DNA from: Loxodes magnus
Lineage: Eukaryota > Ciliophora > Karyorelictea > Loxodida > Loxodidae
Assembly (NCBI GenBank): GCA_946699065.1
Contig: CAMPDV010000279.1
Span: 62,001 to 126,000 of the forward strand
Direction of reading: 5' to 3'
Length of the DNA: 64,000 nt
This document shows positions 5,184 to 64,000 of the stretch, in pieces (position 1 is the first letter of the stretch; each line of letters starts with the position of its first letter). The notes under the pieces are model-generated. The model made no database searches, was not told the origin of the DNA, and saw only the letters and a program-made list of their open reading frames with translations. Made by a program: the position numbers and the translations under genes.

Positions 5184-5212
5184 ATTAATATTATTATTAT
5201 TATTATATTATA
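5184..5212. repeat. (ATT)n microsatellite at the end of an ORF1-type unit
   Basis: ATT/TTA triplets directly follow the zinc-knuckle ORF and precede the next ORF at 5218. The same junction, a related C-terminal sequence followed by (ATT)n, is seen on the minus strand at 17,225-17,260. This suggests it is the 3' tail of the element rather than a random microsatellite. Confidence 0.55.
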
Positions 5213-5217
5213 AAAAA

Positions 5218-6062
5218 ATGGCTTCTAAGAAATAAAAGAACTTTGAACAAAACATTTAAACAGGAAAATTCTCTAAAAAATAAAAAAGCGAAATAATTAC
5301 AATGAGTGAAAGTGAGAAATATGACTGATATGACGAAAATTAACCACTTGGAAATCCAGAATTAAAAAAACTTCCGACACAAACTCAAATAGAAATATTA
5401 TTTAAGTCATTAAAAGAGTTTATGTTTAAAAATAGATACCTCACTGATAAAGTAGAAAAATTAGAAAAACTAATAACGTCTTTACTTGAGAAACAATATT
5501 AATCATCATAAGAAATAGAAAACAAACTTGAACAAAGAATTCTTTAAATTTAATAATAAATTCAGGTAACGCCATTTTCGTTTTAACAGAATTAATCAGA
5601 TCCTATGGAAATAGAAAATGAAGCCTCAAATTAAAATAAACAGTAAACGTTTATTTAAAATAAGTAGTAAATTTAAATTAAATAAGTGTTACAGGAATAA
5701 TAGTTTAAAAAAAGAATAAAATGTTATGCAATAAATAACACCAATGAAAATACTGCTACTAACTAAGCGAAATTTAAAGAAAGAATAAATAAGATATTTT
5801 TAGAAAATTATTTAGGATATATCCAACATAAAGCGGAAACATTTATAGAAAAAAATTCTTTAATTCAAATCTTAATCCTTGGATAAATAATTAGGAACGC
5901 TACATGCAAGATCAAAACTATTCCGAATATTAAAGGATGATGAACTAATGACGTGCTACACCGCCTAACTAAGCCTAGTAGGAATTCAAGACAAACTAAT
6001 AGAGACAAGCTGATAGAATAGGTCAGATGGCTGACTACTAAGGCTTTAACAAAGCTTTTTAA
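5218..6062 (+). pseudogene. Repeat-family coiled-coil/zinc-knuckle ORF, copy 1 (appears broken)
   Basis: Starts MASKKQKNFEQ and shares its whole length with copies at 12,586-13,434 (minus) and 41,446-42,312 (plus). The N-terminal part has an acidic patch and a coiled coil (SLKEFMFKNRYL, DKVEKLEKLITSLLEKQ), then a Gln-rich stretch. The zinc-knuckle region is disrupted in this copy although intact in the other two. Family identity is inferred: a gag/ORF1-like protein of a retroelement. Its ATG follows an (ATT)n tract. Confidence 0.55.
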
Positions 6063-6078
6063 CTTTTTTTTTAAATAA

Positions 6079-12190: not shown

Positions 12191-12585
12191 AACTATAATT
12201 TACTTTAGTTTTAGCTTGTTTCATAATAGCAGGATCTATAATTCACACAGCTAAGATAAGATTTTCTAAAATTATAAAAGCAATATTATAGAAAATTTCA
12301 GTTCTCTGACTAATCATGCTCAACATAGCGAAACTTAAGAAATAAATATAAAATAGTAAATTGATGAATTAACTAGAATTAGAAGGAAAAAGACTAAGAA
12401 ACTTAGAACTTATGCAGAGAAGACTAAAAAAGTATCAAATTTAATTGCAAGTGAATAAAAGAATTGCTAAGTAAGTAGATTAAAGATGAAATCTATATTA
12501 AAAGATAGTAAATTTAAATAAATAAATAGAAATAAAAGATTAGAAAGCATTAATAATGTAGTAATTATAAAGAACAGAGTTAAAG
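12191..12585 (+). mobile_element. ORF1-like coiled-coil fragment
   Basis: Downstream of the element B leader, the plus frame gives a Leu/Lys/Gln heptad run (LRNLELMQRRLKKYQIQLQV, then IVNLNKQIEIKDQKAL). This fits the coiled-coil part of a LINE ORF1. It is cut at about 12,585 by the 3' end of an oppositely oriented zinc-knuckle ORF, so it is truncated. Confidence 0.4.
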
Positions 12586-13434
12586 TTAAAAAGCTTTGTT
12601 AAAGCCTTAGTAGTCAGCCATCTGACCTATTCTATCAGCTTGTCTCTATTAGTTTGTCTTGAATTCCTACTAGGCTTAGTTAGGCGGTGTAGCACTTCAT
12701 TAGTGCACCATCCTTTAATATTCGGAATACTTTTCATCTTGCATGTAGCGTTCCTAATCATTTATCCAAGGATTAAGATTTGAATTAAAGAATTTTTTTC
12801 TATAAATTATTCCGCTTTATGTTGGATATATCCTAAATAGTTTTCTAAAAATATCTTATTTATTCTTTCTTTAAATTTCGCTTAGTTAGTAGCAGTATTT
12901 TCATTGGTATTATTTATTGCACACGTAGCATTTTATTCTTCTTTTAAACTATTATTCCTGTAACACTTATTTAATTTAAATTTACTACTTATTTTAAATA
13001 AACGTTTACTATTTATTTTAATTTAAGGCTTCATTTTCTATTTCCATAGGATCTGATTAATTCTGTTAAAACGAAAATGGCGTTACCTAAATTTATTATT
13101 AAATTTAAAGAATTCTTAGTTCCAGTTTTTTTTCTATTTCTTATGATGATTAATATTGTTTCTCAAGTAAAGACGTTATTAGTTTTTCTAATTTTTCTAC
13201 TTTATCAGTGAGGTATCTATTTTTAAACATAAACTCTTTTAATGACTTAGATAATATTTCTATTTGAGTTTGTGTCGGAAGTTTTTTTAATTCTGGATTT
13301 CCAAGTGGTTAATGTTCGTCATATCAGTCATATTTCTCACTTTCACTCATTGTAATTATTTCGCTTTTTTATTTTTTAGAGAATTTTCCTGTTTAAATGT
13401 TTTGTTCAAAGTTCTGTTATTTCTTAGAAGCCAT
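12586..13434 (-). CDS. Repeat-family coiled-coil/zinc-knuckle ORF, copy 2 (looks whole)
   Basis: 849 nt from ATG 13,434 to TAA 12,588-12,586 (282 aa). N-terminus MASKKQQNFEQ, acidic patch, coiled coil (DKVEKLEKLITSLLEKQY), Gln-rich linker, then a Cys cluster (KCYVCNK, then WKYC) that aligns with the CX2CX3HX4C knuckle of copy 3, where the histidine is retained. The C-terminal 90 residues are conserved in all copies and match nothing I recognise. The same TAA ends copies 2 and 3, supporting TAA as a real stop here. Likely a gag/ORF1-like RNA-binding protein of a retroelement; no polymerase lies next to it. Confidence 0.55.
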
Positions 13435-14570
13435 TTTATATATTTAATAAAAAAGGTTTTATTCTAAAACTTTATCAATATTTTTTATTAGCAAAATATT
13501 TAATTCTTTTCTTTAAAAAATATTTCAAAATTTAATTAGATTTCAAAGAATTTTTTTGTATTTTGATTAATTTTAACTCTTTATTTTTATACACAAAGTA
13601 AAAATTTTAGTCCATCCTCAAAATCTTATCTAATCTAGAATACAGAATAAAAATAGAATTTTAATTTTATACTTTTTTATATATTTATTTTTCAAAATCC
13701 ATTTATTAAAATTTAAAAATTTCATGGATATCTAAATTATAAATTGCATTAATATAATTTTATTTTTTAATTAAAAAATATTAAATATTAAAATCAAAAT
13801 AATGTTTTCATTTTTAATTCTGATGCTTTCTAGAATTAAAAAATAAAATTTTTAACTTTATATAGAAAAATTTATCTCTTATCCTTATTTTTTTTATTTT
13901 TCTAATAATAAAACTTACTAAAACATTTTTGGATTTTCTTTATATGATTTAGCTTTTAACGAACTTAAAAATAATTTATAAGATTAAATAATAAATTAAG
14001 CTTTATAACTTGTTAAATATCTTAAAATTAAATTAAAATATAAATAAAATTTATTTTATTTTATAAAACAATTTAAAATAATAAAAAGTTATCTATTTCC
14101 TTTTAAAATTTATAAAAATTAATTTTTAATTCTATCATATCTTATACTGTAAAATGCTTTGTAAAAAGGTTAATAAAATTGTGCAAAATTCTTAGTTAAT
14201 TAAAGATAAAATTAAATTATTTATTTTTTTACTTTTACTTAAATGTTTTAACTGATTAATATTTTTACTTCAAACGTTTAAAAGATTTAAAAATTTATCT
14301 TTAAAATTTAATTTTTTTTTAATTTAAAAACTATCTTATTCTCTAATTTATTTTATATACCTAGCAAAATTACGATTATAAAGTCTTGATTTATATTTTA
14401 GCGATCTTTGATATAAAGTTACTAAATCTTAAAAGATATTTATACTTAACTATAATCTTAAAATCTTATATAAAGATTTTAACTTTTAATTGCTTAATAT
14501 CCTCTGAAACTTTTATTCATAATTTAAATGCAAGTAGATTTTACCTAATTATAATAATTAACTTTTTTAC
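13435..14570. other. AT-rich intergenic stretch, nothing recognised
   Basis: Extremely A/T-rich with long homopolymer runs. No domain, repeat copy or RNA signal seen. It lies downstream of the minus-strand WD40 gene. Confidence 0.4.
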
Positions 14571-15444
14571 CTATGAAATTTTAAATCTTAATAGTTTTAA
14601 TCTTCTCTCTCAATTTTCTATTTTCCATTTTCTCAAAATTTCGTCCTATGCTCCTGATATTATCCATTTATTATCCTTACTCTATGCTATAGATCTTATA
14701 CTTTCTTCATGATCTTAAAGAGTCTAGATGTATTCACTTGTCGTAAAGCTCCATATCTTAATTGATATATCTCATGATCCAGAAATTATAAAACTTGAGT
14801 CATTACTAATTTAGACATTTGATACTGTTCCAGAATGGCAAGTGAGAGTTCGAATAATAGGACCAGTTGAAAATTCCCATATCTTTATCGTATTATCATA
14901 GTTTCCCGATACGATTCATTTCTGATCTCTTGAAATCGCTATAGAAATTACATAATTCATATGTCCTAACAAAATACTCTTTAACTAGCAACTCGTAAAA
15001 TCTCATATTTTAATCTTCTTATTCCAACTTCCAGATACGATCCATTTCTGATCCCTTGATATCGCTACTGAGTTTACATAACTTGCATGTCCCTACAAAG
15101 TACACTTTACCAACAATTTGTAAAATCCCATGTAATTATTGTCTTATCATCACTTCCCAACATGATTCATTTCTGGTCACTTGATATCACTACAGATTTC
15201 ACAGATTTCGTATGTTTTTACAAAATACTCTGTAACTAACAAGTTGTAAAGTCCCATATCTTTTTTGTACTATCATCACTTCCCGATGCGATAAAATCGT
15301 TTTCACTTGATATCACTATTGATAATGCATAATACATATTACCTTGCAACATTTAGTCTAAATATTAAGAATTACCTTGATTTTAATCGTAGTTAACTAT
15401 TTTCACAAGTTTTTTTAAAAAACACAAATTGGCTAAGATTTCAT
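14571..15444 (-). pseudogene. WD40-repeat protein, copy 1 (one frame break)
   Basis: At least six WD40 blades on the minus strand, each ending in a W-D/E/S-F unit (KKIWDFTTC, IITWDFTNC, IKIWEFSTG, IKIWSFTTS) after SxDxKWIxSG strands. Trp occurs as both TGG and TGA at equivalent positions, and Gln as TAG/TAA. A GT-AG intron of 18 nt (15,375-15,358) matches the position of the 20-nt intron in copy 2; both follow N-Y-D-Q-x-Q. A single-base frame change near 15,100, in the third blade, separates otherwise good frames. This is a pseudogene or a base-calling error. The candidate ATG at 15,444 is not in frame with the first exon segment, so a further intron or another start is likely. WD40 propellers are scaffolds; the specific role is unknown. 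Confidence 0.7.
15358..15375 (-). other. 18-nt GT-AG intron in WD40 copy 1
   Basis: GTAATTCTTAATATTTAG on the minus strand. Removing it joins NYDQNQ-D to QMLQG, aligning with NYDQGQ-D and QVLTG in copy 2, where a 20-nt intron lies at exactly the same codon phase. Conservation of site but not sequence or length supports a true intron. Confidence 0.65.
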
Positions 15445-15482
15445 CTTTAAAAGAAGAAGCTTAATTTTGCCTAAGGAATATT

Positions 15483-15795
15483 TTAATTAATTTCAACTAT
15501 AAAAGTTTTTGTACCGGAAACTCCTTTCCGATTGCACGACCCGACGCTCTCTTTTTATGGAATAAAGGGGATATCCTGTTGTGCTCCAGGCACAGCTGCT
15601 AGGGAGCTCCATCGCTATGAGCAGTAGGCTTCAAGCTCCTACCAAGAGCGGATAATCTCAAAGACAGCGTTCCCTTCAGAAAATGACTCTGACCATGGAC
15701 TTTCTCAGAGACAGGAAAGGAACTTGTTCCTAGCCATAAAACCAGAAAGTTTAGCCACGAAGGTCATTCTCAGGTTCCACCATCTTTTCAATTAT
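15483..15795 (+). ncRNA. GC-rich structured element A, copy 1 (RNA gene or SINE)
   Basis: About 310 bp of much higher G/C than its surroundings, bounded by TTAATTTCAACT and CACCATCTTTTCAATTAT in three copies. It has a perfect stem CGGAAA-CTCC-TTTCCG at 15,515-15,530 and a second stem TGTGC/GCACA at 15,580-15,594. Smaller pairs follow (GCT-ATG-AGC, GGC-TTCAA-GCT). In copy 3 both main stems have different bases yet pair perfectly. TGGAATAAAGGGG resembles a Pol III A box, GCTTCAAGCTCC a B box, and the TCTTTT end a Pol III terminator. It lies just upstream of, and divergent from, the WD40 gene. It is not a tRNA, 5S or recognisable SRP/RNase P RNA by eye. Confidence 0.6.
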
Positions 15796-17220
15796 CCTAG
15801 GGAATATTTTCGTTATCTTAAAATTTTTCTTAAAAAATACTTTTAATAAATAATTTTCTTTATTTTCCAATTTTTGTTTAATAACTTACTTAAATAGTTG
15901 TTTAATTATAGTAACTTACCTTATGAATAGAAAATAACCTTTCTGACTTATCTTCTATACAATAAAATATTTAAATTATTAATTTATTAATTATGCTTAT
16001 AAATACCTTATTATTTAAATATCATTTTTTATTTTTTTAATTAGTTTAAGTATAAAAATATTCTGATTGCTTTTAAGTCTAATATTTAGTATCAACTTCT
16101 AATCGATTTGCGTAGATAAAAAATATTTTAGTCAAGGGATTTAAAGAGAGTTTTGGTTTAATTACTTAAAGATAAATTCTCGATTTTGGAAAAAAGTAAT
16201 GAATGTTGAAGTAAAATTTTTCAAATGATTATGATTAATAAATTTAAGAACATTCAGTTAGTAAAAAGTTAAATCCAAAATTAAATAGGAACTATCTTAA
16301 ATAATAATCTAAATAAAGAGAAATTTGTATCATGCCAGTATATTTGTAGTGCAAGTAAGAAGAACTAAAATTAAGATAATTAAAGTAAATAAGATACCTA
16401 TTAGATAATTTAATTAAAAAATATATCTCACATTAATTAGAATTTTAACTCAACTAATAGATATTTGCTAAATTAATATACTTTTAATAGAAAGCAATAT
16501 TTAGCAAATTCTCCATTTTTGTTTTGACGTATGAAGAGTGTTTTATAAGAGTATATTTATTGTTTATTAGTATAAATAATAAAAATTTATAAGAAGATTA
16601 TATGTTTTTAGAGTAAATATAAAGGTAATTTTTAGCAGAAACTTTAAAAAATTTAATAGGAATGTTTAGTTATTATAATATGCTTTTTATAATAGGCTTT
16701 AGAATCATGTCTATCTATTTTTTAATATTCCATTTTACTGAAGTTAGTTATAAAAGATTTGTGTTTTCTTAAATTTTGAAAATTAAAGAAACTTAATTTG
16801 ATTTACTAGCATAAGATATTTAATTTTTTATTTCCAGCACATTTAAGCATTATATAAGTAAAAAGATTTAAATTTATTAAGTAAATTATGCTTATCCTAA
16901 TTTTTAATTACTTAAAGCATTGGTAACTTAATCTTTTCACTCTAAATCTAGATTTCTTTACTATAATATTTTAGCAATGTTTTATTATAAATTTAAAAAG
17001 AAATGAAGTTAGTTTATTTTAATTTATATATTATTTATTTATAATTAGCATTTTTTAATTTTAAAGTTATATAGTTTTTAAATTACTAACTACTAATCTT
17101 AATTTAGTTTATAATTTAAATATATTCGCAAAGCTATTTGAAGCTTATATAACTTTATTACTTGCTTAATTGTTTTAATTTAAATCTTTATTAATTATTT
17201 AAAAGTTTAGAACGTAACCT
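15796..17220. other. AT-rich intergenic stretch, nothing recognised
   Basis: A/T-rich, no domain or repeat copy recognised on either strand. Confidence 0.4.
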
Positions 17221-19904: not shown

Positions 19905-21404
19905 TTATATTTTTTTACCTTTATCCCAATTTTGCTCTTCTTTTCTTCCATCTGCATAATAATGAGTTCCTTTCCCATACTTAAGACCTTCTACAAAATG
20001 ACCTTCATAATGAGATCCATCATAATATTTTTCAACTCCATACCCATGACTCTTCCCTTTGAAGTACTCTCCCTCATATATTTCTCCATCTGCATAATAG
20101 TAAGTTCCCTTTCCTTACTTAAGATTTTCTACAAATTAACCTTCATATCAATCTCCAAAGTTATACTTATAAACTCCATATCCATGTCTCTTTTCTTTGA
20201 AAAACTCCCCATCATATATTGCTCCATCTGCATAATAGTAAGTTCCTTTTCCTTACTTAAGACCTTCTTCTCATTAACCTTCATATCGAGATCCATCCTT
20301 ATACTTATAAACTCCTTATCCATGCCTCTTGTCTTTGAACCATTCGCCCTCATATATTGCTCCACTTGCATAATAGTAAGTTCCCTTTCCTTACCTACAA
20401 TCTTCTATATATTAACCTTCATATCGATCTCCATTGTTATACTTCTCAACTCCGTATCCATCTTTCTTTCCATTTCTCTTCTCTCCATCATATCCTATCT
20501 CATTTTCTTGTACTTTCTCTTCCTAATTTGTTCCTACTTCCTTTTACTCTTCTATTTCGATCTCCTTCACATTACTCTTTAATATCTCCTACATGCTCAT
20601 CTCTTACTTTATCTTCTCTAACTTCTACAATGACGTTTCTAAACTCATTCTTTGATCTGCTTCTTATTTTCAACTCTCCCTTATTATCTCCTCTATCACA
20701 CAATTCTCAGGTATTTCCTCTCTTTCACCTCTCTTTATCCCTTCTCGTAACTCTCCTTCCTCTACTTCTTCGAAAGGTATTTTTCTTGTCACTATCTCCC
20801 ATAAAACAACTCCATAAGCATATATGTCAGAAAAGAAACTATACTTTGGTCTCATTCCAAATAACTCAGGAGCCATCCATCTTATTGTTCCAACCTTTTT
20901 ATTTGTACTCGAGGATTTAGAAGCTGATTTGACTTTAGATAATCCGAAATCACTTATTTTAACATTCTTACTTTGATTTAGGAGTATATTCTCGCTTTTT
21001 AAATCCCTATGAACTACGTTGTTAGAATGTAAGTAAAATATACCCGCTGCTATTTGCTGAGCTATTTCTAATTTCAGTACTAAACTTATATCTTATTTAC
21101 TATGGAGAAATTACATAAGAGAACATTACATTAATTCCACTATAATTCTTGTTGGCTCTAGACTATATCCATAGAATTATATAATGTTAGGATGTTTTAA
21201 ATTTTGCATTATTTAAATCTCTTTGTTGAATTCTCATTCAGTATCTTCATTCAACTTCCTTTGAAAGAAATCTTTAATAGCTACATTTGTAAATTTATTT
21301 CATTTTCCTTAGTAGACTGTACCATAAGCTCCATGTCCAATTTCTTTTTCAATTTATAATGTCGATGATTCTATTTTAATATTAAAGCTTATACTACTTT
21401 CCAT
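19905..21404 (-). CDS. Protein kinase with C-terminal MORN repeats
   Basis: Intact: ATG 21,404 to TAA 19,905 (499 aa), followed by a second TAA. Kinase domain at residues about 18-280: G-loop IGHGAYGTVYQG, VAIK lysine, HRDLKSEN catalytic loop, DFGLSK, then GTIRWMAPEL and DIYAYGVVLWEI, and an RES(W)KQEADQR C-lobe end. These motifs place it with TKL-type Ser/Thr or dual-specificity kinases. A Glu/Lys-rich linker (about 290-335) leads to roughly seven MORN units (YEGEWFKDKRHGQGVYKYKD, YYYADGAIYDGEFF), ending GRKEEQNWDKGKKI. MORN repeats usually bind membrane phospholipids or scaffold cortical structures, so membrane or cortex targeting of the kinase is inferred. TAA/TAG encode Gln and TGA Trp throughout (GKWNKF, ESWKQ, GDWYEG). 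No intron seen. Confidence 0.9.
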
Positions 21405-21699: not shown

Positions 21700-22097
21700 A
21701 TATAAAATGGATGTCGGCTGCATTCTGGAGAACTAGTAGTTATCTGGTGCAGTGTATACTGCATTGTGAGTTATCTCGCACTAGATGCCACCACGGGGAA
21801 GGGTGGATAAACTCCGTTGAGACATGCTTAACTTACCCCGAGGGTTCTCGCTAGCAGTATGAAAGTTTTACTGGCGGGTCCTCTAGTTAATGACTTAATA
21901 ACTAATTCTTATTTGTACTTTATTCAAGAAGAATGGAACATTTGATTCAAGACTTGTGAATGATGTTTAGTAAATAGATTCTCCATTAAGAGAAGCTGAT
22001 GTGACTTATTGGACTACAAGAATTTTAAGAAGAAACATGAGAACATTTTTCCTAATATTAAATATTAATATTGAAAGAGCTCATGATCCAGAAATTA
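21700..22097 (+). mobile_element. Element B copy 3 and start of ORF1, abutting LINE copy 1
   Basis: Leader at 21,700-21,895 contains a hairpin TGCAGT-GTAT-ACTGCA and a second CCACC/GGTGG pair around ACGGGGAA. It shares long blocks with 12,005-12,190 and 8345-8165. From about 21,935 the frame MEHLIQDLWMMFSKQILH, then EKLMWLIGLQE, matches the minus-strand copy near 8.1 kb. Ends in a 23-bp stretch identical to part of the WD40 gene at 14,771-14,793, right where the long LINE repeat begins. Confidence 0.5.
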
Positions 22098-25000
22098 TAA
22101 AAGATATTTTGATGTATAATACCCTGTCGATTAGATATATATTTATATATATTTTTAAAATTGTAAAATAATTAATGTTTTTTTAAATATTTTATTTTGT
22201 TTGATTTTAAACTATTATTTGAATTTTCTAAAGTAAAAATAGTTATTAAATTAATATTTTATTTCTGTTTGAATTATTTAATTAGGTTTAATTTAGTTTA
22301 TAAGAACTAATGAAAAATTTTGGTTTAAACATATTATATTTTATATTTTATGACTTAATATTTTTATTTTCTTAGAAAAAAGTTCTTTATTTCTTTTAAA
22401 TCATAAAATTGTTTGCTCAGAGATTTATATTACTAAAGATTTATGGGATAATATAAATTAAAATTTTTTAATTAAATAAAAGATAAAAAGATTTAATTAA
22501 AAATCAAAAATATTGATATTTTCAAAAAAATTTAATAAAGAAAGAAATATTAAAACTTTATTAAGAAATCTTTTTGATTGAAAAAATAGAGAGTTATTTT
22601 AAAAAGAATAGAAATAATTTATAAAAATTGTTATTAACAAAAGTTATAAATAAATATTTATAAAAAATTAAATATCCAAAATTATTATTTAAAAAACAAA
22701 AATTAAGATCTTCAAAATTTTAACAGTAAAACATCATTTTCAAAACCAAACTTATTTAAAATAATTTTAAATAAAGAATATAAAATATTTAGATATTATC
22801 AAGGATGAGAGAATTCAAATCTTAAATCTAAGGATGATAAATAGTCTGCTTTAAAAAAAGAAGTCGTAATATATAACTTGGATTTAAAAAATAACTCATA
22901 TAAAAAACAGCTTAAATGATTCAAGTAAAAAAAATAAATAAATAAATAGTTTAAAAATGTTAAATCCTCCTTCTTTAAGATGTTTTAAAAAAAAATACGA
23001 AGAAATTCTAGAAAAAATAAATATTGTAGACATTTAAAAATATTTTTAAAAAAATTAAAAAGTAAAAGCACAAATTATCTCTTAAAAAATTAAAATCAAT
23101 TAAAAAAATTAAAAAAGACTAAAAATCATTTCGATTAAAAGAATATATTTTTAAAAACGTTGCATGAAATTAATTTTAAAAAAGACGAAAAATAAAAAAG
23201 ATTATTTTAAAATACAAAACAATAAGCAAAAAAAAAAAAAAATGAAAAATGATAAGAAAAATAATATTAAAATTAAATGATTAAAAAAATTAAGAATAAA
23301 AAAATATTTTTAAGAGTAATCTAGCCAATTTTATATTTTTAACTTAAAGCATTAGTAATGAAAATGAACAAATTATTTTAAAAAAATTTAAAAGCCCTCT
23401 AAAAAATAAAGATATCATAAAGTTATTGCAAAAAAATTTAAAAAATTTAAATAAAAAAGAATATCAAACAGTAAGGACGTAAAACAAAATTTTAAGTAAA
23501 ATTACATCAAAATATAATGATCTGAAAGTTACAAAAAAATTGTTTTAAAATTTAAAAATTATAAAAAACATAAAAAACGTAAATCCATATAAAAAAAGAG
23601 AAAAAATTAAAACTTCAAGAAGATAAATATAGTAAAAAATACATTATAATTTTTTGAAAAAGTAAATGAAGAGTAAAAAATACAAAAAAACATTTAACTA
23701 AGTTTTTAAGCCTTGAGTTATTAAATTTTTATAGTTTGAATAAATAAGAAAGATAGCATTTCTATGAAAAGTAAAGAAGAAAGGTGAGGAAAATAATTTT
23801 AAAATCTGTTTTAAATAAAGCCTTTAAAGCTTAGATTAACATTGATAAGAGATTATTGAAGATATATAGCAGAAGATATCTCTACATTATATTATAATAT
23901 TTTTACTAGAATAAATAACATAAAAAAAAGACGTTCATCTTTAAATTTGTGGATAAAAAAAGAAATTTTAATTTATGAAATTTAGGTTGAATGGAGGCTC
24001 TTAATTAAATCAGAAAGAAAACAAATTTATTTAGCTCTAGATAAATACTAAAATGAAATAGCTTCAATCAGAATAAGATTAGACATATCAATATAAATGG
24101 AATAGTAAATAAGCTATATGCAATAGAATAATTTATAAGAGGAAATAGTATTTACATTTTTTCAATTAACGAAACTTGATAAAAAAGATTTCCCTACAAT
24201 CTTAATTTAAGATTATAGGATTTATTACAAAAATTCGAGTAAAGGAGAGGTGCAGGCATGGCCACGAAAGAAAAAATCAATAGTACTGAAGAAACTATAT
24301 AATTGATGTATCCTAGAATCGATTTATCACAGCCAAACTGGACAATATATAAATTACGTTCTGCTTCATGCCAGATAATATTAAAAATGAGAACATAAAA
24401 GATTAAGCATACGATTATATTAATTTGCTACTTAATCAATCCCAAATAGTCCACATATTCTAATGGGAGATTTCAACAATCTCTTATTAGACTATGGAGA
24501 TAGATTCAAGATGAGCCTAACACTTTAGTCATTATTCCAATTTTTAAAAAGGTAATAAGATGAGAGATAAAATTGATGTCCAATTCCATTAATCAATTTT
24601 ATGCTGAAGTTGTATGATAAAGCTCTATCGAAGAAATTATACAATCTAATTTACTTAAGAAACTTAATTCACCCAAACCAAATGAGATTTATGAAAAATA
24701 GACAAATAACTTAGTAGATCTGAGTAATACAATAAATTATAGATCTATTTCGAAAGTAAGCAAAGGAAAAACTAAATTAATAGCAACTTTGATTGACTTG
24801 GAGAAAATGTTTGACTAGATAGAAAGAAGATTGGATTTGATTAGTTGATGAGACGTGTTAAATTACCTTTAGAATTGATATTAGCATTTGAATCTTTTTA
24901 TTACAATCAAAGTCTTAATTCCTCACAGATGGAAGCTAAAAAGCTTAAATACAGCAATGGAGTAATGTAAGGAAGTTCAAATGGCCAGTATTAGCACTGT

Positions 25001-26640
25001 TATATTATGATATTGTTATAGGACACATAGAAAGTAAAGGAAATAGTATTGATTCAAATGTAATAACTTCAATAACAGTTTCGCTTGTAGAGGATGGGCA
25101 GATGATTTAAAATTCTTTTCAAAATATAAAATAAACATGCAAGTATCAATAGATGAAACAAATAGAGAATTGAACTTACTTTAAAATAAATGCCTCCAGG
25201 TGTGAAGCAATTCAGTTTCTAAAAAGTAAAAAGAAAAGAGGAAAACTTAAACTTGAAGATTGTAAATTATGATATTAAATAAAAATAGCTAATTTTATAT
25301 TAAGGGGTAATTTTTTATTAAAAAATATTTAATTAATCACTGCAAACAGACTTCAATTACCTATAAGTTGGCTATGAAAAAGGCAGTATTTACGATATTA
25401 AAGTATAAAAAGTGACACCTTATTATTTTAAGACTTTGTGCAGAATTTTCGCGTTCCCTAAAGCAGAGTATGGTGGTGAGATAGTACCTTAATCTACCTA
25501 AAATGGAATTACTGCAATATTAAATAAAATTGATAAAATCATAAGATTATTAGCAAGAAAATACTTTTAAGCACCTGGAAATACTCTAAATGAGTCTTTT
25601 CATATAGATCTTAGCTGAATGCCATTTAAGTATATAATGGCACTGAATATTTTTAGATTCTTTTACAAAATAAGATAAGAAAGTATAAATATTCCCTAAC
25701 CAACAATAGAATCCCTTTTTAAGAACAACTGATAAATATTAATAAAGAGATTAAACAGCAAGACAATCTGAATATTACGAAATAGATATTAATAATTAGG
25801 AATACAATAGTAGCGAAAATACTTTTACGAAATATGTTAAAATAAGATTCAACATATATTTTATGAAGTAATTACTTAAAAACTAAAAAAGATGTTCACT
25901 GCAAAGTTATTTATAGAATAATTAGAATAATAATATTAACTCTCTTAAATTACCTATCAAAGAATTAAATATTTTCGAAAAGAAATAATTTTTACACACA
26001 AACTCAGAACCTAAAACAAAAAACTTTCGCAAAGACCTTTAAGACAGACGTTATTTAATTGAGAATTCCCATTTTATCTATGTAAAATTTGATTAATTTG
26101 AAAATATTCTGGATTTGATTGTTATATAGATATGCTAGATTGGATAATATGACATTAGAAGATTAATAACTTATAACTAAATCTATATAAATTAATTAAA
26201 AAAAATTAGAATCATTGATCTGCCAAGTAAAATTTGTTATAGTATGTTGGTTAAAAGAAGATAGAATTTTTCGAATTGAAAAATGACGAATGATAAGAAA
26301 GTTTTGATACTAAGGTTAAGGAAGTGAAAGAAAAAGAAAAGATGAAGCAGATGATGAAAATAAGAAAGTAAAAGAAGAGCAAGAAAAACAAAAATAGAAA
26401 ATGGAAGATTAGAAAGAATAAACTGATGACGAAGATGATCTAGCTGAAGAAGAGGATGAAGATGAAAGCGTTTGAGTTTAAAAAATTTTAAATAACATTA
26501 TAAGATCATTAATTGAAGGAAGCACTTCCAACAATGAAAAGATGTCACAAGACTCTTTAGTTAAATTTAAATATGAAATTAAAAAGAAAAATATGAAAAA
26601 AATTGATAAAATTTGGTTTAATTAAATAATATCTGCTAAA
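22098..26640 (+). mobile_element. LINE (non-LTR retrotransposon) with APE-type endonuclease and RT, copy 1
   Basis: About 3.7 kb (22,098-25,850) is repeated nearly identically at 36,757-40,486. The first 1.7 kb is Lys/Asn-rich and A-rich, with no clear ORF1 domain. At 24,340-24,550: ITFCFMPDNIK, then HILMGDFNNLLLDYGDRF (the GDFN motif of APE-like endonucleases). RT: SISKVSKGKTKLIATLIDLE at about 24,745, KMFDQIERR, YYDIVIGHIESKG, then the RGWADDLK box at about 25,090. The RT tail holds AEYGGE and NESFHIDLSWMPFKYIM, where W is TGA. The C-terminal zinc motif is degenerate (YVKFDQFENILD at about 26,080). The 3' tail at 26,505-26,570 matches L3 and L4. It carries several frame changes, so it is inactive. 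It ends ten bases before the MORN gene start. Confidence 0.8.
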
Positions 26641-26649
26641 GTTATAAAA

Positions 26650-28966
26650 ATGGGAAACAGTAAGGGAAATTATTAAGGAGAAAGACTCAATGGAAAAATG
26701 CATGGATAAGGTATATATAAATGAAAAGATGGATCAATATATGAAGGAAAATGAATAAAAGGTTTAAGAGAAGGTAAAGGAATTATTTATTATCCAAGTG
26801 GGGATATTTATGAAGGAGATTGATTGAAAATAAATACCATGGATAAGGTATACATAGATGAAAAAATGGAGAAAAATATGAAGGATAATTTATAGAAGGT
26901 TCAAGAGAAGGTAAAGGAATAATGTATTGACCAGATGGAGCTGCTTATGAAGGAGATTGAGGTTTTAAAATAAATACCTTATGAAGGAGATTGATTGATA
27001 AAATGATGGAAGGTATACATAGATGAAAAGATGGTTATATATATGAAGGATAATATTTTGAAAACTTAAGAGAAGGTAAAGGAATAATGTAGTATTAAAA
27101 TGGAGATATTTATGAAGGAAATTGATTGAAAGATAAAAAACATGGATAAGGTATATATAGATGAAAAGATGGATCAATATATGAAGGATAATGATAAAAA
27201 AATTAAATTTTAGGAAAATAATCGAAGTTTTATTTTATCAATGGAGCTTTTTTTGACTCTTGTTATTTCAAAATAGATAAAAATAAAAAGTAAGCTTTTA
27301 ACTAATAACAAAATTGAATTAAGAATTTAAATCTTAAAAATTAAAATTTATTAAGAAAGTAATAAGAATAAAAGTAATAATTACTTATATCATAAAGTTA
27401 AAATATCCTTAATCAGATTTTTACTTTTCTTAGCTTAAAGGATATTTGCACTCTATAAATGACTAATAACTTCTTATACTCTTATAATTATAAATTCTAA
27501 GTTATAAAAGTTAAACATTTTAGTGGAACTAATGAACATATCTAAAGTAAACTATAATGAATAATAAAATAAATATAGAATCAAGATATAATAAAGCTGG
27601 TCATTGATTTGAAGAACTTATCTCAAAATTTGATAGACTAATTATAATTCAAGCTATATTATAGTATTCTATTTAGATAATTAACTAACCTTTAAAAAGG
27701 AAAGAAAGATTTATTATCAGACTTTTCTCTCTTACGTTATGATTAGAACTTTATGCTTACTACTTTTTTACCTTATTAGAACTTAAGAAATTTAACACTG
27801 GAAGGATGCTTTAAGGATGATGATTTATATTTCATTGAACTGGTAACTAATCTTGAATAATTAGATTTAAATGATATTAGAAGTAAATATTCTGGTTAAG
27901 GACTTAGTGGACAATTTTTAAGTAAGTATTGTATGCACTTAAATAATGTTGTTGGTCTAAAAATGAAAAGTGATTTTATTTAAAAAGTATTTATAAAAGA
28001 CTATTTAGAATAAAAAGGAAAACTTATTAAATATCTTAATATTAATGAAACTTAAACCTAACAGTTCACTCATTTATGTCCTAACTTAACTGCTTTTGAT
28101 TCTTAAATTAATGGTTCTTCATAGTAAATTTTAAATAGAGAAATAAATCCTGAAATTTTTAGTTTAGAGTTAGAAGGAAATTTTAGTTAAGAGTGCTTTT
28201 AGTAGTATTTCTCAGTTAGTTATAGGAAACTTAATATAGTTAGTATATAAAACTGTGATAGTTTTAGTGATTAAAATTTGTAGATTCTTTTATAAAATGC
28301 AAATAACATCTAGTCACTTAAATTAAAAAGTTTAGTATAACTTACTAATTCTTCTCTAAGATAAATAGCTAATTATGGATACAACTATCAATCAATCAGT
28401 TTAAGTAACTTAAATCAAATAACACATTCAACTTTAGCTTCTATTTTCTAACTGTGCAAAAGATTAAAGTCACTAGAACTTGCTTAACTTAATCAGATCA
28501 ATGTAGAGATCTTTAAAATTATTAGGTAAAATAATCCTTATTTACAAAGTTTAAAACTAAGAAACTTAAAATTACAAGGAAATTAAAACTGAATAGATGA
28601 AATAGCATAAATAAATCAATTAAATAGCTTATAACTAAATGATTTAAACTTAAATTATTAAGATATTTCTCAAATATTATAAAAAGCTACAAGATTATAA
28701 GTTTTAGATTTACGTTAAAATCAAATCTTAAGCGAATTATTTCCTATAAATGATGGAAATTAGTAACCTTATCCTATTTATAAAAGTTTAAAGATTTTAA
28801 AGGTAACTTTTTAGAATTTCAAATTTGAAGGTTAATTTAGGAAAATAAAGGAAAAATATAGAAAAATAAAAATATTTAATGGAGATAAAGAGATTTATGC
28901 TTCTTCTCGGAGATACCTTGATTTGATTTTGTGAGATTTGAGCTAGCAACTATTATAACTCTATTA
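26650..28966 (+). pseudogene. MORN / F-box / leucine-rich-repeat protein, copy A
   Basis: Starts MGNSKGNYQGERLNGKMHGQ. About eight MORN units follow (KWKDGSIYEGKWIKGLREGK) to 27,205. An F-box is at about 27,400-27,490 (ILNQIFTFLSLKDICTLQ). Then come AMN1/F-box-type leucine-rich repeats to about 28,900 (LRNLTLEGC, NLEQLDLND, LKSLELAQLNQI, LQSLKLRNLKL, RLQVLDLRQNQI). F-box plus LRR suggests a substrate adaptor of an SCF-type ubiquitin ligase; MORN repeats suggest membrane or cortex attachment. Copy A has two irregular MORN units (near 26,830 and 26,960-27,000) that break the frame between ATG and F-box, whereas copy B is continuous. Bases 27,186-28,966 are an almost exact inverted copy of 50,195-48,411. 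Confidence 0.7.
27186..28966 (+). repeat. Inverted segmental duplication, left arm
   Basis: The sequence from the last MORN unit through F-box and LRR is nearly identical to the reverse complement of 48,411-50,195, about 19.4 kb away. Identity drops sharply in the last 60 bases and stops near CTATTATAATT. The high identity in non-conserved linker DNA points to a recent duplication or gene conversion. Confidence 0.8.
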
Positions 28967-34751: not shown

Positions 34752-35535
34752 TTACATGAATAACTTAATTTTAATAATTCTTCTTAAATTTTTAAATTTA
34801 TAAGTCTTAAATATTTTTGACTCCTCTCAATTTACAATCCTCCATTTTTTCACAGTGCTGTCCTACGCTCCCGATACAATCCATTTATTGTCCCTACTCA
34901 ATGCTAAAGATTATATTTATCATTAACGGCTTTAAAGAGTCTATAAACATTCACCTGTCGAGAAGTTCCATAACTTGATTGTTCTGTCCCAGAAACCAGA
35001 AAATATAACACTTGAATCATTACTAAGTTGAATACTACGCACAACATCTGTATGACTAATAAGAGTTCGAATACATTATCAATTCTAAAAGTCCCATACT
35101 TTAATTGACTTGTCACCTGAACCTGAAATTATATATTTATTATCAAGTGATATGATTACCGATCCAACCCAGTCTTTTTGCCCAGTAAGAGTTCGAAAAA
35201 GCTGACCAATTTGGAAATCCCAGATCTTTATCGTTTTATCTCCACTTCCCGATACAATTCCTTTCTGGTCACTTCTTATAGCTACCGAACTAACTAAATA
35301 TGTATGTCCAGTCAAAGTTCTCGCACAACTTCCAGTCTGGAAATCGCAGATCTTTATTGTTGTATCTAAACTTCCCGATACAATTCATTTCTAGTCACTT
35401 GTTATTGAAACAGAGATAGCATAATGCTTTTGTCCAGTCAAAACTTAGTCTAAAATATAAAAGATTTACCTTAACCTTAGTCGTAGTTGATTTTGTTTAT
35501 AAGTTTTTAAAAACAAAAGTTTGGTAGGATTTCAT
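34752..35535 (-). CDS. WD40-repeat protein, copy 2 (intact main exon)
   Basis: Five blades in one frame on the minus strand: SDQKWIVSGSLDTTIKICDF, SDQKGIVSGSGDKTIKIWDF, YIISGSGDKSIKVWDF, FSGFWDRTIKLWNF, then KWIVSGAQDSTVKKW. Trp is TGG or TGA and Gln CAA/CAG/TAA/TAG at interchangeable sites (for example DFQNWQC, with TAG, TGA and TAA). The main exon is 698 nt, from the 20-nt intron (35,469-35,450) to TAA at 34,754-34,752. The first exon is short, and the ATG at 35,535 (MKSYQT) is conserved in copy 1 (MKSQP) but out of frame with exon 1's end, so a further intron or another start is likely. Short for a full seven-blade propeller, so possibly a partner-dependent scaffold or a truncated paralogue. 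Confidence 0.75.
35450..35469 (-). other. 20-nt GT-AG intron in WD40 copy 2
   Basis: GTAAATCTTTTATATTTTAG on the minus strand, at the same codon phase as the 18-nt intron of copy 1. Splicing joins NYDQGQ-D to QVLTGQ. Confidence 0.65.
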
Positions 35536-35966
35536 ATTTAAAAAGAAGAAAAGGAATTATGCCTAGGGAATCTTTTCTTTGTCTTAAGAGTTTTCGTAAA
35601 AAGATAATTTTAGTAAATTGTATTTCTTAATCTTCCGTTTCTATTTTAGTTACTTTAGTAAGTACTTAATTAAAGTAACTGATCTTTTGAATTGAGAATA
35701 ATTTAGCTGACCTAATTTGAATAGAGTTAAATACTTAAATGATTTATTAATTAAGTATACTTATAAGTAATCTATTACTAATACATAATTTAAAATCCTA
35801 TTTTACTTAAATCTAATCAGATAAATATGTACTCTTTAAGAATTAACAGATGAGTTTGGTCTATAGCATTGAGTAGGGACAAAAGATGGTTAATATCTGA
35901 AGCGTGGAAAAATACTATGAGGAAGTAGAGGATTGCGAGATGAGAGTGAGGAATGAACTTATTTAA

Positions 35967-36291
35967 AACTAATTAAATTAATGAATTTCAACTAAAAAGT
36001 TTTTGGACCGGAAACTCCTTACCGATTGCACGACCCGACGCTCTCTTTTTATGGAATAACGAGGATATCCTGTTGTGCTCCAGGTACAGCTGCTAGGGAG
36101 CTCTATCGCTATGAGCAGCCAGGCTTCAAGCCCCTACCAAGAGCGGATAATCTCAAAGACAGCGTTTCCTTCAGAAAATGACTCTGACCAGGGACTTTCT
36201 CAGCAACAGGAAAGGAACTTGTTACTAGCCATAAAACCAGAAAGTTTAGCCACGAAGGTCATTCTCAGGTTCCACCATCTTTTCAATTATC
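35967..36291 (+). ncRNA. GC-rich structured element A, copy 2
   Basis: Over 90% like copy 1 by eye, in the same place relative to a WD40 gene (upstream, divergent). Stem 1 is CGGAAA-CTCC-TTACCG at 36,009-36,024 with one mismatch. Stem 2 has a G-T wobble where copy 1 has G-C. The hairpin GGC-TTCAA-GCC is perfect here and G-T in copy 1. A 78-codon open frame runs across it, but the code and the substitution pattern make it a poor gene candidate. Confidence 0.6.
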
Positions 36292-36756
36292 TAAAACTAA
36301 TTAAATTTTAGGATTTATTAAATTATTATTAAAAGTAGATAAATCTAAGTTAATATATTTTATATTATTAAAATATTTATAAAGTTTAAAAGTCTTTTAG
36401 TTTTTATTTTTAATTAAATGTTTAAATATTTTATGCGTATGATTATTATTAAAAGTCTTTCTACTGTTTAGTATTTTATATTTAAGGATATAAGCTATTT
36501 AGATTAATTTATTTAGATTATGTCTTTGATTTATATCTATTTAAAAAGCTGCTTTTTTTAATTATTTTTTTAATATTATTAAATAAAGATTAATATTTTA
36601 AATGCTATAGTTTTTTTTTAATACAAGTATCAGTATATTAATTGATTTTTTTCAAAGCAAGCATTCAATATTTTTTATTCAGATCACTTTTAATTAATAT
36701 TATTAAAACTTACTAAAGAGTTTGTAGACTTTTTTTTGGTCAGTATTTTATACTAT
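36292..36756. other. AT-rich spacer, nothing recognised
   Basis: A/T-rich spacer between element A and the second LINE copy. Confidence 0.4.
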
Positions 36757-39700
36757 AAAAGATATTTTGATGTATAATACCCTGTCGATTAGATATATAT
36801 TTATATATATTTTTAAAATTGTAAAATAATTAATGTTTTTTTAAATATTTTATTTTGTTTGATTTTAAACTATTATTTGAATTTTCTAAAGTAAAAATAG
36901 TTATTAAATTAATATTTTATTTCTGTTTGAATTATTTAATTAGGTTTAATTTAGTTTATAAGAACTAATGAAAAATTTTGGTTTAAACATATTATATTTT
37001 ATATTTTATGACTTAATATTTTTATTTTCTTAGAAAAAAGTTCTTTATTTCTTTTAAATCATAAAATTGTTTGCTCAGAGATTTATATTACTAAAGATTT
37101 ATGGGATAATATAAATTAAAATTTTTTAATTAAATAAAAGATAAAAAGATTTAATTAAAAATCAAAAATATTGATATTTTCAAAAAAATTTAATAAAGAA
37201 AGAAATATTAAAACTTTATTAAGAAATCTTTTTGATTGAAAAAATAGAGAGTTATTTTAAAAAGAATAGAAATAATTTATAAAAATTGTTATTAACAAAA
37301 GTTATAAATAAATATTTATAAAAAATTAAATATCCAAAATTATTATTTAAAAAACAAAAATTAAGATCTTCAAAATTTTAACAGTAAAACATCATTTTCA
37401 AAACCAAATTTATTTAAAATAATTTTAAATAAAGAATATAAAATATTTAGATATTATCAAGGATGAGAGAATTCAAATCTTAAATCTAAGGATGATAAAT
37501 AGTCTGCTTTAAAAAAAGAAGTCGTAATATATAACTTGGATTTAAAAAATAACTCATATAAAAAACAGCTTAAATGATTCAAGTAAAAAAGAAATAAATA
37601 AATAGTTTAAAAATGTTAAATCCTCCTTCTTTAAGATGTTTTAAAAAAATTACGAAGAAATTCTAGAAAAAATAAAAAAAATAAATAATATAGACTTTTA
37701 AAAATATTTAAAAAAATATTAAAAAGTAAAAGCACAAATTATCTCTTAAAAAATTAAAATCAATTAAAAAAATTAAAAAAGACTAAAAATAATTTCGATT
37801 AAAAGAATATATTTTTAAAAACGTTGCATGAAATTAATTTAAAAAAAGACAAAAAATAAAAAAGATTATTTTAAAATACAAAACAATAAGCAAAAAAAAT
37901 GAAAAAATTAAAAATGATAAGAAAAATGATATTAAAATTAAATGATTAAAAAAATTAAGAATAAACAAATATTTTTAAGAGTAATTTAGCCAATTTTATA
38001 TTTTTAACTTAAAGCATTAGTAATGAAAATGAACAAATTATTTTAAAAAATTTAAAAGCCCTCTAAAAAATAAAGATATCATAAAGTTATTGCAAAAAAA
38101 TTAAAAAAATTAAAATAAAAAAGAATATCAAAACAGTAAGGACGTAAAACAAAATTTTAAGTAAAATTACATCAAAATATAATGATCTGAAAGTTACAAA
38201 AAAAATTGTTTTAAAATTTAAAAATTATAAAAAACATAAAAAACGTAAATCCATATAAAAAAAGAGAAAAAATTAAAACTTCAAAAAGATAAATATAGTA
38301 AAAAATACATTATAATTTTTTGAAAAAGTAAATGAAGAGTAAAAAATACAAAAAAACATTTAACTAAGTTTTTAAGACTTGAGTTATTAAATTTTTATAG
38401 TTTGAATAAGTAAGAAAGATAGCATTTCTATGAAAAGTAAAGAAGAAAGGTGAGGAAAATAATTTTAAAATCTGTTTTAAATAAACCTTTAAAGCTTAGA
38501 TTAACATTGATAAGAGATTATTGAAGATATATAGCAGAAGATATCTCTACATTATATTATAATTTTTTTACTAGAATAAATAACATAAAAAAAAGACGTT
38601 CATCTTGAAATTTGTGGATAAAAAAAGAAATTTTAATTTATGAAATTTAGGTTGAATGGAGGCTCTTAATTAAATCAGCAAGGAAAACAAATTTATTTAG
38701 CTCTAGATAAATACTAAAATGAAATAGCTTCAATCAGAATAAGATTAGACATATCAATATAAATGGAATAGCAAATAAGCTATATGTAATAGAATAATTT
38801 ATAAGAGGAAATAGTATTTACATTTTTTCAATTAACGAAACTTTATAAAAAATATTTCCCTACAATCTTAATTTAAGATTATAGGATTTATTACAAAAAT
38901 TCGAGTAAAGGAGGTTCAGGCATGGCCACGAAAGAAAAACTAAATAGTACTGAAGAAACTATATAATTGATGTATCCTAGAATCGATTTATCACAGCCAA
39001 ACTGGACAATATATTTATTACGTTCTGCTTCATGCCAGATAATATTAAAAATGAGAACATAAAAGATTAAGCATATGATTATATTAATTTGCTACTTAAT
39101 CAATTCCCAAATAGTCCACATATTCTAATGGGAGATTTCAACACTCTCTTATTAGACTATGGAGATAGATTCAAGATGAGCCTAACACTTTAGTCATTAT
39201 TCCAATTTTTAAAAAGGTAATAAGATGAGAGATAAAATTGATGTCCAATTCCATTAATCAATTTATACTGAAGTTGTATGATAAAGCTCTATCGAAGAAA
39301 TTATACAATCTAATTTACTTAAGAAACTTAATTCACCCAAACCAAATGAGATTTATGAAAAATAGACAAATAACTTAGTAGATCTGGGTAATACAATAAA
39401 TTATAGATCTATTTCGAAAGTAAGCAAAGGAAAAACTAATTTAATAGCAACTTTGATTGACTTGGAGAAAATGTTTGACTAAATAGAAAGAAGATTGGTT
39501 TTGATTAGTTGATGAGACGTTTTAAATTACCTTTAGAATTGATATTAGCATTTGAATCTTTTTATTGTAATCAAAGTCTTAATTCCTCACAGATGGAAGC
39601 TAAAAAGCTTAAATACAACAATGGAGTAATGTAAGGAAGTTCAAATGGCCAGTATTAGCACTGTTATATTATGATATTGTTATCGGACACATAGAAAGTA

Positions 39701-40486
39701 AAGGAAATAGCATTGGATTCAAATGTAATAACTTCAATAACAGTTTCGCTTGTAGAGGATGGGCAGAAGATGTAAAGCTCTTTTCAAAATATAAAATAAA
39801 CATGCAAGTATCAATAGATGAAACAAATAGAGAATTGAACTTACTTTAAAATAAATGCCTCCAGGTGTGAAGCAATTCAGTTTCTAAAAAGTAAAAAGAA
39901 AAGAGGAAAACTTAAACTTGAAGATTGTAAATTATGATATTAAATAAAAATAGCTAATTTTATATTAAGGGGTAATTTTTTATTAAAAAAGACTTAATTA
40001 ATCACTACAAACAGACTTCAATTACCTATAAGTTGGCTATGAAAAAGGCAGTATTTACGCTATTAAAGTATAAAAAAATGACACCTTATTATTTTAAGAC
40101 TTTGTGCAGAATTTTCGCGCTCCCTAAAGCAGAGTATGGTGGTGAAGTACCTTAATCTACCTAAAATGGAATTACTGCAATATTAAATAAAATTGATAAA
40201 ATCATAAGATTATTAGCAAGAAAATACTTTTAAGCACCTGGAAATACTCTAAATGAGTCTTTTCATATAGATCTTAGCTGAATGCCATTTAAGTATATAA
40301 TGGCACTGAATATTTTTAGATTCTTTTACAAAATAAGATAAGAAAGTATAAATATTCCCTAACCAACAATAGAATCCCTTTTTAAGAACAACTGATAAAT
40401 ATTAATAAAGAGATTAAACAGCAAGACAATCTGAATATTACGAAATAGATATTAATAATTAGGAATATAATAGTAGCAAAAATACT
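36757..40486 (+). mobile_element. LINE (non-LTR retrotransposon), copy 2
   Basis: Direct repeat of 22,098-25,850, offset 14.66 kb, nearly identical including its A-rich first third. The endonuclease part reads better here than in copy 1 (NQFPNSPHILMGDFNTLLLD). RT motifs are as in copy 1, with the box at about 39,755 (RGWAEDVKLF, where the first catalytic Asp of WADD is Glu). Unlike copy 1 there is no 3' tail: similarity stops at about 40,486, and an unrelated coding piece follows. 5' end TATAAAAGATATTTTGATG as in copy 1. Confidence 0.8.
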
Positions 40487-40990
40487 TTTACTAAGAGTTT
40501 GTCTCTAAAAAACCTTTATCACAACGATCCTATTGATATAGAACAAGTTATGCAACCAGCTAAAGGAAAAATTTAAATGCTGGTTTTTTTAAAAACCTGG
40601 TAATTTTGTAAGACATCGGTGGAAATTCTGGGATAAACAAAATGCAGAGAATAAGAAAATTCAAAAAGTATGGAATAAGCTAAGCAGATTGTATGTTACC
40701 CAAGAGGGTAAAATTTATAGACTTAAGAAAACAAACAAAAAAATTAGCAAACAGGTTGTGATGAAAATAAATTATTCGGACTCTAGTAAACGTTAGAAAC
40801 ATAACTAAATTTCAACCAAATTCATATAAATAAAATCAGGAGAAAAAACAGTAGTCGATATGTAATAATGTAGTATAAAACAACTGAAGAATATGGAGAA
40901 TACATTCAGAATGCATTTTTTAAAAATTTATAAACAGAATAGCAGTGATAAACCTAATGAAAGGTGGTATCACTTTAATTAATTATTAAA
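40487..40990 (+). mobile_element. Zinc-knuckle-like ORF fragment fused to LINE copy 2
   Basis: Starts exactly where LINE copy 2 stops. The frame gives KFKCWFF, KPGNFVRHRWKFW, VWNKLSRLYVTQEGKIYRL, KSGEKTVVDMQQCSIKQ. The first part resembles a degenerate C-x2-C-x3-GH knuckle of gag/ORF1 proteins. Not found elsewhere in the window. Probably a piece of another retroelement joined by insertion or template switching. Confidence 0.35.
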
Positions 40991-41445
40991 TAATTATAAT
41001 ATCTTATATTTAAAACATCATATTTTGCACTAAAGCTTCTTTTATTATCTAATAACTAAATAATTTGAAAATATTTCATTAAAATTTTAATAGAGAGTTA
41101 GGTGGAAAATGTATTAAAGCTTTTTTTATAATTATTTAGTTTTCTCTTTTTCTTATACGTTAATATTTAACATTCTCTTATGAAGTATTTAGCATTTTTT
41201 ATAAATCTTTCAAAATTTGAATAGTTAAGTTATTAGAATATGCACATTTATAAAAGTTTGCTATTTAAACTAATTAGAGATTAATCTAAATGAGTTTCTT
41301 ATGAAGATAGACTTCTTTTTTATTACTGTAAAGTGAACAAGAAAAGTTGGCTTGATATTAATAGCTATATTTTAATATGAAAGTATATAGCTTTTGAAAA
41401 AAAGCAGTTAAATTAATAAGAAATACGTATATTATTATTCATAAA
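40991..41445. other. AT-rich spacer, nothing recognised
   Basis: A/T-rich; ends in a short ATT run before the ATG at 41,446. Confidence 0.4.
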
Positions 41446-54545: not shown

Positions 54546-54552
54546 TTATTTA

Positions 54553-63897: not shown

Positions 63898-64000
63898 TTA
63901 TCTTTATTACCTACTAACTTAAAAGCTTTCAAAGGACTGGAAAGGAGTTTCCAGCTAAACGACCAAGATCATTCTCTTGATTTTCATAATGCGTGTATCC
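63898..64000 (+). ncRNA. GC-rich structured element A, copy 4 (cut by window end)
   Basis: CTACTAACTTAAAAGCTTTC precedes a perfect stem CTGGAAA-GGAG-TTTCCAG (63,937-63,954), followed by CTAAACGACC as in the other copies (ACGACC) and a GTATCC at the edge where others have GATATCC. Stem sequence and loop both differ from copies 1-3, yet pairing is complete. Partial. Confidence 0.5.

Follow-up and report, generated by a model that had tools for sequence, protein, structure and literature searches.

A probable SINE-type retroposon family with a covarying fold in the ciliate Loxodes magnus

The locus and its four element copies

The window, the whole stretch of 64,000 nucleotides analysed here, comprises bases 62001-126000 of contig C279 (CAMPDV010000279.1) in a Loxodes magnus assembly of 705,730,643 bases and 7,843 contigs, which is probably macronuclear. 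With the standard code, the whole window holds two open frames of at least 120 amino acids, and a reading of TGA as Trp and TAA as Gln reveals a 514-amino-acid MORN-repeat protein and a protein kinase. The available part of PMC11441545 gives UGA as the sole stop codon of this species, which can also specify Trp, describes 915 families of interspersed repeats, mostly unclassified, and states that extensive DNA elimination was not found. Under the same reassigned reading, the MORN-repeat gene occupies 49791-52718 on the minus strand and is built on a 138-base tandem unit, with similar DNA also present at 19947-20461 and 26670-27200; the kinase gene (20625-21404, minus strand; PF07714, E 1e-63) adjoins a MORN-like repeat region. 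A dispersed repeat of about 0.87 kb, to which no identity was assigned, is present in three copies that are 88-97% alike (5197-6066, 12582-13453, and 41430-42334). No tRNA gene was found in the window by ARAGORN run with the bacterial code. Outside it, contigs C103, C78, and C158 carry regular tandem arrays of tRNA genes with units of 527, 1,753, and 1,752 bases, respectively, and seven tRNA genes located elsewhere in the assembly are tRNA-Lys(TTT).

Retroelement sequences are also present. A reverse transcriptase domain (RVT_1) was identified by Pfam above the cut-off at 61546-62498 on the minus strand (E 4e-8), in a species for which about 2,700 RVT_1 copies are reported in the portion of PMC11441545 at hand. 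Over about 0.8 kb, the element at 22096-25831 is 67% identical to this RVT_1 stretch. It forms, together with a sibling at 36754-40494, a pair of 3.7 kb retroelement-like stretches that are 97.7% identical, and copies of these at 97-98% on contig C1138 and elsewhere on C279 suggest an array of segmental duplications. The sibling has only sub-threshold Pfam matches, to Exo_endo_phos families in one frame; Pfam searches with the LINE-like fragments returned nothing in most frames, and a PDB sequence search with one LINE-like open frame gave no match.

The earlier note had described four G/C-rich copies of one element on the plus strand, and a profile search of the window recovered exactly these four, all on that strand, three of them complete and one cut, with hits at 15483-15796, 35978-36290, 54553-54865, and 63906-64000. 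The element is about 315 bases long. The three complete copies have a G+C content of 44-45%, and what is visible of the fourth has 37%, compared with 23.4% for the window and 14-30% for the kilobases flanking the copies. The features belonging to the four copies are as follows, the domains of copy 1 being mapped by hand from the consensus alignment.

from 15470, plus strand: longer left duplication of copy 1, 15 bp, CCTAAGGAATATTTT, differing at one base from the right duplication
15475-15484, plus strand: left target-site duplication of copy 1, GGAATATTTT
15483-15796, plus strand: copy 1, subfamily A, complete; bases 15483-15484 are common to element and duplication
15514-15531, plus strand: 5' hairpin of copy 1 (stem 1)
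15547-15650, plus strand: central branched domain of copy 1, including stem 2 (15580-15594)
15547-15552 with 15645-15650, plus strand: closing helix of the central domain of copy 1, CTCTCT with AGAGCG
15677-15774, plus strand: 3' domain of copy 1, a long irregular hairpin
15801-15810, plus strand: right target-site duplication of copy 1, GGAATATTTT
35454-35744, plus strand: paralogous empty site without the element
35964-35979, plus strand: left target-site duplication of copy 2, TAAAACTAATTAAATT
35978-36291, plus strand: copy 2, subfamily A
36292-36307, plus strand: right target-site duplication of copy 2
54540-54555, plus strand: left target-site duplication of copy 3, TACTCATTATTTATTA
54553-54866, plus strand: copy 3, subfamily B
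54867-54882, plus strand: right target-site duplication of copy 3
63906-64000, plus strand: copy 4, older group C, 5' part only; it runs on past the window edge in C279 (sampled loci L059 and L081)

Both stems carry the letters first reported for them. Stem 1 reads CGGAAA/TTTCCG in copy 1 (15515/15525), CGGAAA/TTACCG in copy 2 (36009/36019), CTGCAA/TTGCAG in copy 3 (54583/54593), and CTGGAAA/TTTCCAG in copy 4 (63937/63948), the TTACCG of copy 2 being a deviation from the subfamily A consensus TTTCCG. Stem 2 reads TGTGC/GCACA (15580/15590), TGTGC/GTACA (36074/36084), and TGCTTT/AAAGCA (54646/54655) in copies 1 to 3.

Genome-wide copies and mode of insertion

The element recurs in the genome far beyond chance. 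A 25-base motif designed to cover all subfamilies has 4,919 genome matches with at most three mismatches, and motifs near element bases 78, 148, and 288 have 4,534, 4,716, and 4,744 matches, respectively, with at most two; the counts are lower bounds for the old group C. Matches are evenly split between the strands, and reversed-pattern controls gave 0 matches in every case. The similarity of the counts along the element, in which motifs were tallied singly rather than paired copy by copy, suggests that most copies are full length, and both ends were present in 12 out of 12 copies picked from pattern hits and not from best hits.

The sampled loci yielded 111 hits, 82 of them of distinct sequence, and all 82 were aligned. 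The family comprises two subfamilies, A and B, together with an older group, C, which has three consensi (C1, C2, and C3). Within the window, the A copies (1 and 2) are 79% identical to the B copy (3), and the full sequence of copy 4 is 68% identical to B over 221 bases. Copies of A (n=47) diverge from the nearest consensus by a median of 2.5% and those of B (n=27) by 1.0%, values that come mostly from best hits and are therefore biased to young copies; the median for C3 (n=18) is 14.7%; C1 and C2 are small sets of five copies each, mostly near-duplicates. The 12 pattern-picked copies are all nearest to A and differ by 2.9-16%; they (L116-L126 and L135) were taken from the first 100 pattern hits listed, all with an unmutated core motif, and thus lean young too. 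The family is seen here as dispersed, mostly full-length copies with precise ends that belong to subfamilies of different age.

One further copy on C279 (L002, C279:174036-177349) is chimeric. Its left flank and element correspond to the copy 1 region 14761-15796 (96%), and its element and right flank to the copy 2 region 35978-37790 (98%). It has no target-site duplication and appears to be a recombination product of two SINE copies in a duplicated array.

The ends of the element read TTAATTAATTTC and TTTTYAATTAT, and no terminal inverted repeats are evident at them by eye. Direct repeats scoring at least 12 near both ends were found in 46 of 81 sequence-distinct copies, compared with 0.8% in randomly re-paired flanks; segmental duplicates among the 81 make the number of independent insertions smaller. 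All 46 belong to the 62 A and B copies, and the 19 group C copies score at most 10, so the insertion mechanism for group C is carried over from A and B. With anchored ends, 45 of 59 junction pairs have duplications of 11-24 bp (mean 15.9 bp), the 59 being flank-distinct pairs from 131 elements with both ends matching set patterns, a selection from which the old copies except L127 drop out. At copy 1, the joined flanks align through the element-free paralogous stretch at 35454-35744. A nick-site consensus, sought as a means of orienting the element, gave no clear motif. A combination of sharp ends, variable duplications of such length, and termini with no evident inverted repeats is characteristic of insertion through target-primed reverse transcription by a LINE. 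A short, high-copy element with AT-rich termini could also be a non-autonomous DNA transposon (MITE), but inverted termini are not seen by eye, the duplications vary over 11-24 bp instead of having a fixed length, and the accessible part of PMC11441545 notes a paucity of DNA-transposase domains in Loxodes magnus; we regard this origin as highly improbable.

With regard to a partner LINE, 3' regions were compared from seven relatives of the 22096-25831 element in the genome; one of them (L109) departs before the end, which leaves six usable 3' ends (L110-L115) of one clade, L112 and L115 being 99% alike. By eye, these ends consist of a hairpin and AAATTT repeats, and the 3' end of the SINE, CATCTTTTTAATTAT, has no likeness to the six; the 3' regions of the two LINE-like elements in the window were inspected by eye and with a tail-pattern scan. 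The idea that the SINE took its tail from a LINE 3' end thus finds no match in the one LINE clade sampled. The hairpin of the LINE-like ends (ATCTTTAATTG...CAATTAAAGAT) is present in L110-L115 and, on the minus strand of the window, at 9.6-10.05 kb and 60.8-61.2 kb. Its arms seem by eye to covary in the 61 kb copy, and it is possibly the LINE's own recognition signal. With three mismatches allowed, the window yields no hit to a 26-base pattern drawn from L110-L115, so the hairpin versions there are more diverged.

A protein-coding element was rejected on two grounds, frame-breaking gaps and the lack of a codon phase in the A/B differences: 8 of 9 gaps between A and B, 9 of 10 between A and C3, and 7 of 8 between B and C3 are not multiples of three, and the A/B differences are spread 15/13/11 over the codon phases. 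The B/C3 differences are uneven (24/11/27), which counts against the non-coding reading.

Covariation of the fold, its DNA-level rival and transcription

The proposal that the stems covary was confirmed in a larger alignment, and the covariation extends over most of the element. When the five subfamily consensi were folded together, with positions lacking a majority written as A, the common fold reached -42.3 kcal/mol, compared with -16.5 (sd 4.1) for column shuffles (z -6.4; 0 of 100 as low), and the opposite strand reached -55.0 compared with -22.0 (sd 3.9; z -8.6; 0 of 100 as low). In the plus fold, 19 of 67 pairs have double changes, while folds of shuffled alignments have a mean of 6.2 and a maximum of 15, and partners slid along the alignment give at most 7. 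The opposite-strand fold contains 53 of the 67 pairs, 18 of them with Watson-Crick double changes. These statistics come from five consensi that are few and related, from shuffles that ignore the tree, and from a structure derived from the same family.

The 53-pair structure was placed on 27 diverged copies, an alignment made from 35 representatives of 130 of the 131 elements, with eight further A copies omitted so that A would not be dominant. On these copies, 85.8% of the cells are paired (34-48% when slid), 84 cells have double changes compared with a shuffled mean of 37.6 (0 of 500 as high), and 24 pairs have double changes (9-18 when slid; reached by 1 of 500 shuffles); four of the five measures were reached by 0 of 500 shuffles. 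The covarying long-range helices join columns 75-83 with 182-187, 99-102 with 173-176, and 237-243 with 282-288, and the long-range pair 100-175 occurs as five standard pair types. In stem 1, whose six pairs are paired in 93.1% of the cells of the 27 copies, four pairs are changed on both sides (reached by 2 of 500 shuffles) and the covariation score was reached by 0 of 500. In stem 2, 74.6% of the cells are paired compared with 63.1% when rows were shuffled (reached by 0 of 2000 shuffles), a figure in which the innermost pair is counted only in the 19 C copies owing to the way the arm was cut; 16 cells have double changes compared with 6.7 in shuffles, the number of pair types is not above that of shuffles, and the outermost pair is unpaired in 19 of 19 C copies.

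The RNA of the element seems to hold to a single fold as its sequence changes. Given the 27 copies as direct input, RNAalifold found only 12 pairs (-5.0 kcal/mol), yet 0 of 40 column shuffles were as low. Single-sequence folding energies are mostly unremarkable: of eight sequences, the C3 consensus has a plus-strand z of -3.2 and the B consensus one of -2.6, and the remaining six lie between -2.0 and +0.35. Wobble pairs number 12 to 9 between the strands in the five consensi, and the 27 copies have 91 G-T and 90 A-C cells, an equality by which the wobble count favours neither strand as the RNA.

Inversion of a hairpin loop between its arms ('flip-flop') is a known phenomenon, and it bears on stem 1. 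Eight segmental duplicates of one insertion (L079-L086, on C279, C1138, and C7666), matching at 96-98% over 2.3-3.3 kb, have identical stem 1 arms with the loop GGAG in five and CTCA, its near-inverse, in three. The covariation of stem 1 has for this reason a DNA-level rival, in which the compensatory changes arise by template switching in palindromes and not by selection on an RNA fold. According to the part of PMC8794818 available, template switching, which is proposed there for RNA genes, can give rise to both inverted loops and compensatory changes in short palindromes. Flipped or flip-like loops in 6 of 19 old copies point the same way, and so does the equality of G-T and A-C cells; the stem 1 arms change at 7.9% compared with 14.6% for the body, a value as low being found in 9 of 269 same-shaped windows. 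In subfamily A, a pattern specific to the flipped loop, with at most one mismatch, found one copy in the genome. Against a general role of such events, covariation is found in the long-range helices as well, and short template switches would not readily act over 45-110 bases. Moreover, only 2 of 16 changed stem 1 pairs in the old copies were altered on both sides, and pairing was retained in 7 of 16. We consider template switching an unlikely source of the compensatory changes.

A classical SINE transcribed by RNA polymerase III, with an internal A/B-box promoter that starts transcription at the 5' end and a T-run that terminates it, is a further rival, and one that the evidence makes somewhat unlikely. 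The subfamily consensi were scanned for A and B boxes. A B-box-like site, GCTTCAAGCCC, with one mismatch to GGTTCRANNCC, is present in the A and B consensi, and 18 of 400 shuffles of the B consensus reach at most one mismatch on one strand, a result that is weaker for ten consensus strands having been scanned; the site lies mid-element near base 145, an unusual position. This B-box-like motif is slightly better than chance. The A-box-like motif, in contrast, is no better than in shuffled sequence, one mismatch being reached by 312 of 400 shuffles and none by 42. A run of four or five T lies about 10 bases from the right end, and four to six consecutive T stand behind each of the seven tRNA-Lys genes examined in this assembly. 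The element run is not at the very end, however, since AATTAT follows it, exact in 22 of 27 aligned copies and variant in five, and the plus strand of subfamily A also has TTTTT runs near bases 24 and 70. Transcription from these boxes to the T-run, as first suggested, is thus not supported.

Origin of the family and comparison with known systems

Rfam searches gave 0 matches in the window at the gathering threshold and, with relaxed thresholds on A, B, and C copies, only sub-threshold hits at chance level, in agreement with the initial statement that the family matches no recognisable RNA. A tRNA, 5S, or 7SL parent was rejected, as there was no credible Rfam match inside the element even with relaxed thresholds; a sub-threshold tRNA hit (L103:1858-1928) falls outside it. 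Some accepted SINEs have heads of unknown origin.

With a probability of roughly 0.85, the element represents a non-coding, SINE-type retroposon family whose structured RNA is moved by LINE machinery. The A and B duplications, the one empty site, the lack of a coding signal, and the covarying fold are observed here. Source copies would be transcribed into an RNA with a conserved fold of three domains (a 5' hairpin, a branched central domain, and a long 3' hairpin domain), the LINE-encoded endonuclease and reverse transcriptase of this genome would take up that RNA, and target-primed reverse transcription would insert it at AT-rich sites, leaving the duplications of about 11-24 bp. The fold would matter to the source RNA, for its stability or for recognition by the LINE machinery.

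The choice between a SINE and an RNA gene had been tied to expression, which from very many loci would favour a SINE. Judged by motif matches, the number of loci leans towards a SINE, and the thousands of matches, the target-site duplications, and the empty site indicate the SINE type. In the alternative of an RNA gene, the copies would be retro-copies of a functional structured RNA that is still undescribed, much as Alu derives from 7SL, and the source would keep a cellular job. A conserved three-domain fold outside any known family and the presence of several subfamilies, as expected of a long-lived source, fit such a gene, but the analysis, which centred on the dispersed copies, identified no source gene, and the fold could equally be kept for retroposition itself; we think this rather unlikely. 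A related and more speculative idea, put forward tentatively, is that the family came from, and may still be fed by, an abundant, undescribed structured karyorelict RNA of about 300 bases, in the manner of 7SL and Alu, with its three-domain fold kept for recognition by LINE machinery or a cellular protein and with no standard Pol III promoter.

As a SINE-type family with subfamilies of different age, the element offers a countable record of retroposition in a ciliate for which extensive genome editing is reported to be absent. A parasite RNA that keeps its fold despite sequence change would provide a route to the structure that a LINE enzyme recognises, and the flipped loops a way to separate selection on RNA from hairpin mutation of DNA.

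SINEs such as Alu and the tRNA-derived families are short, non-coding, and dispersed in thousands of mostly full-length copies, with subfamilies of different age. The Loxodes family resembles SINEs in general in being short, non-coding, and dispersed in thousands, with duplications of about 11-24 bp and subfamilies of different age, and differs from them in lacking a recognisable head of tRNA, 5S, or 7SL type, a good Pol III promoter, and a tail in common with the sampled LINE clade, and in having covarying pairs along most of its length. The LINEs rnd-1_family-27 and -19 and the RT fragments of the window, presumably of the same genome, are a plausible source of the enzyme. The inversion of a loop between unchanged arms in the C279 duplicates is like the known flip-flop inversions and like the template-switch mutations of PMC8794818, with the difference that the Loxodes event is seen inside a dispersed element of what is probably a ciliate genome.

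Ciliate SINEs are known from Paramecium, for which four consensuses are in use (PMC8934623, as far as its text was available). The likeness to these is that both are SINEs of ciliates, and the Loxodes family differs in residing in a probably macronuclear assembly, for a species in which the accessible text of PMC11441545 reports no extensive DNA elimination. The word SINE is absent from the available main text of that Loxodes magnus paper, none of the papers in the collection searched names both Loxodes and SINE as whole words, and the family may well sit among the 915 repeat families counted there. Given the known Paramecium SINEs, the absence of a SINE from the Loxodes paper, and the lack of an Rfam match, it is taken as a new, unnamed SINE-like family, which is unusual in combining a covarying fold with the lack of a recognisable parent.
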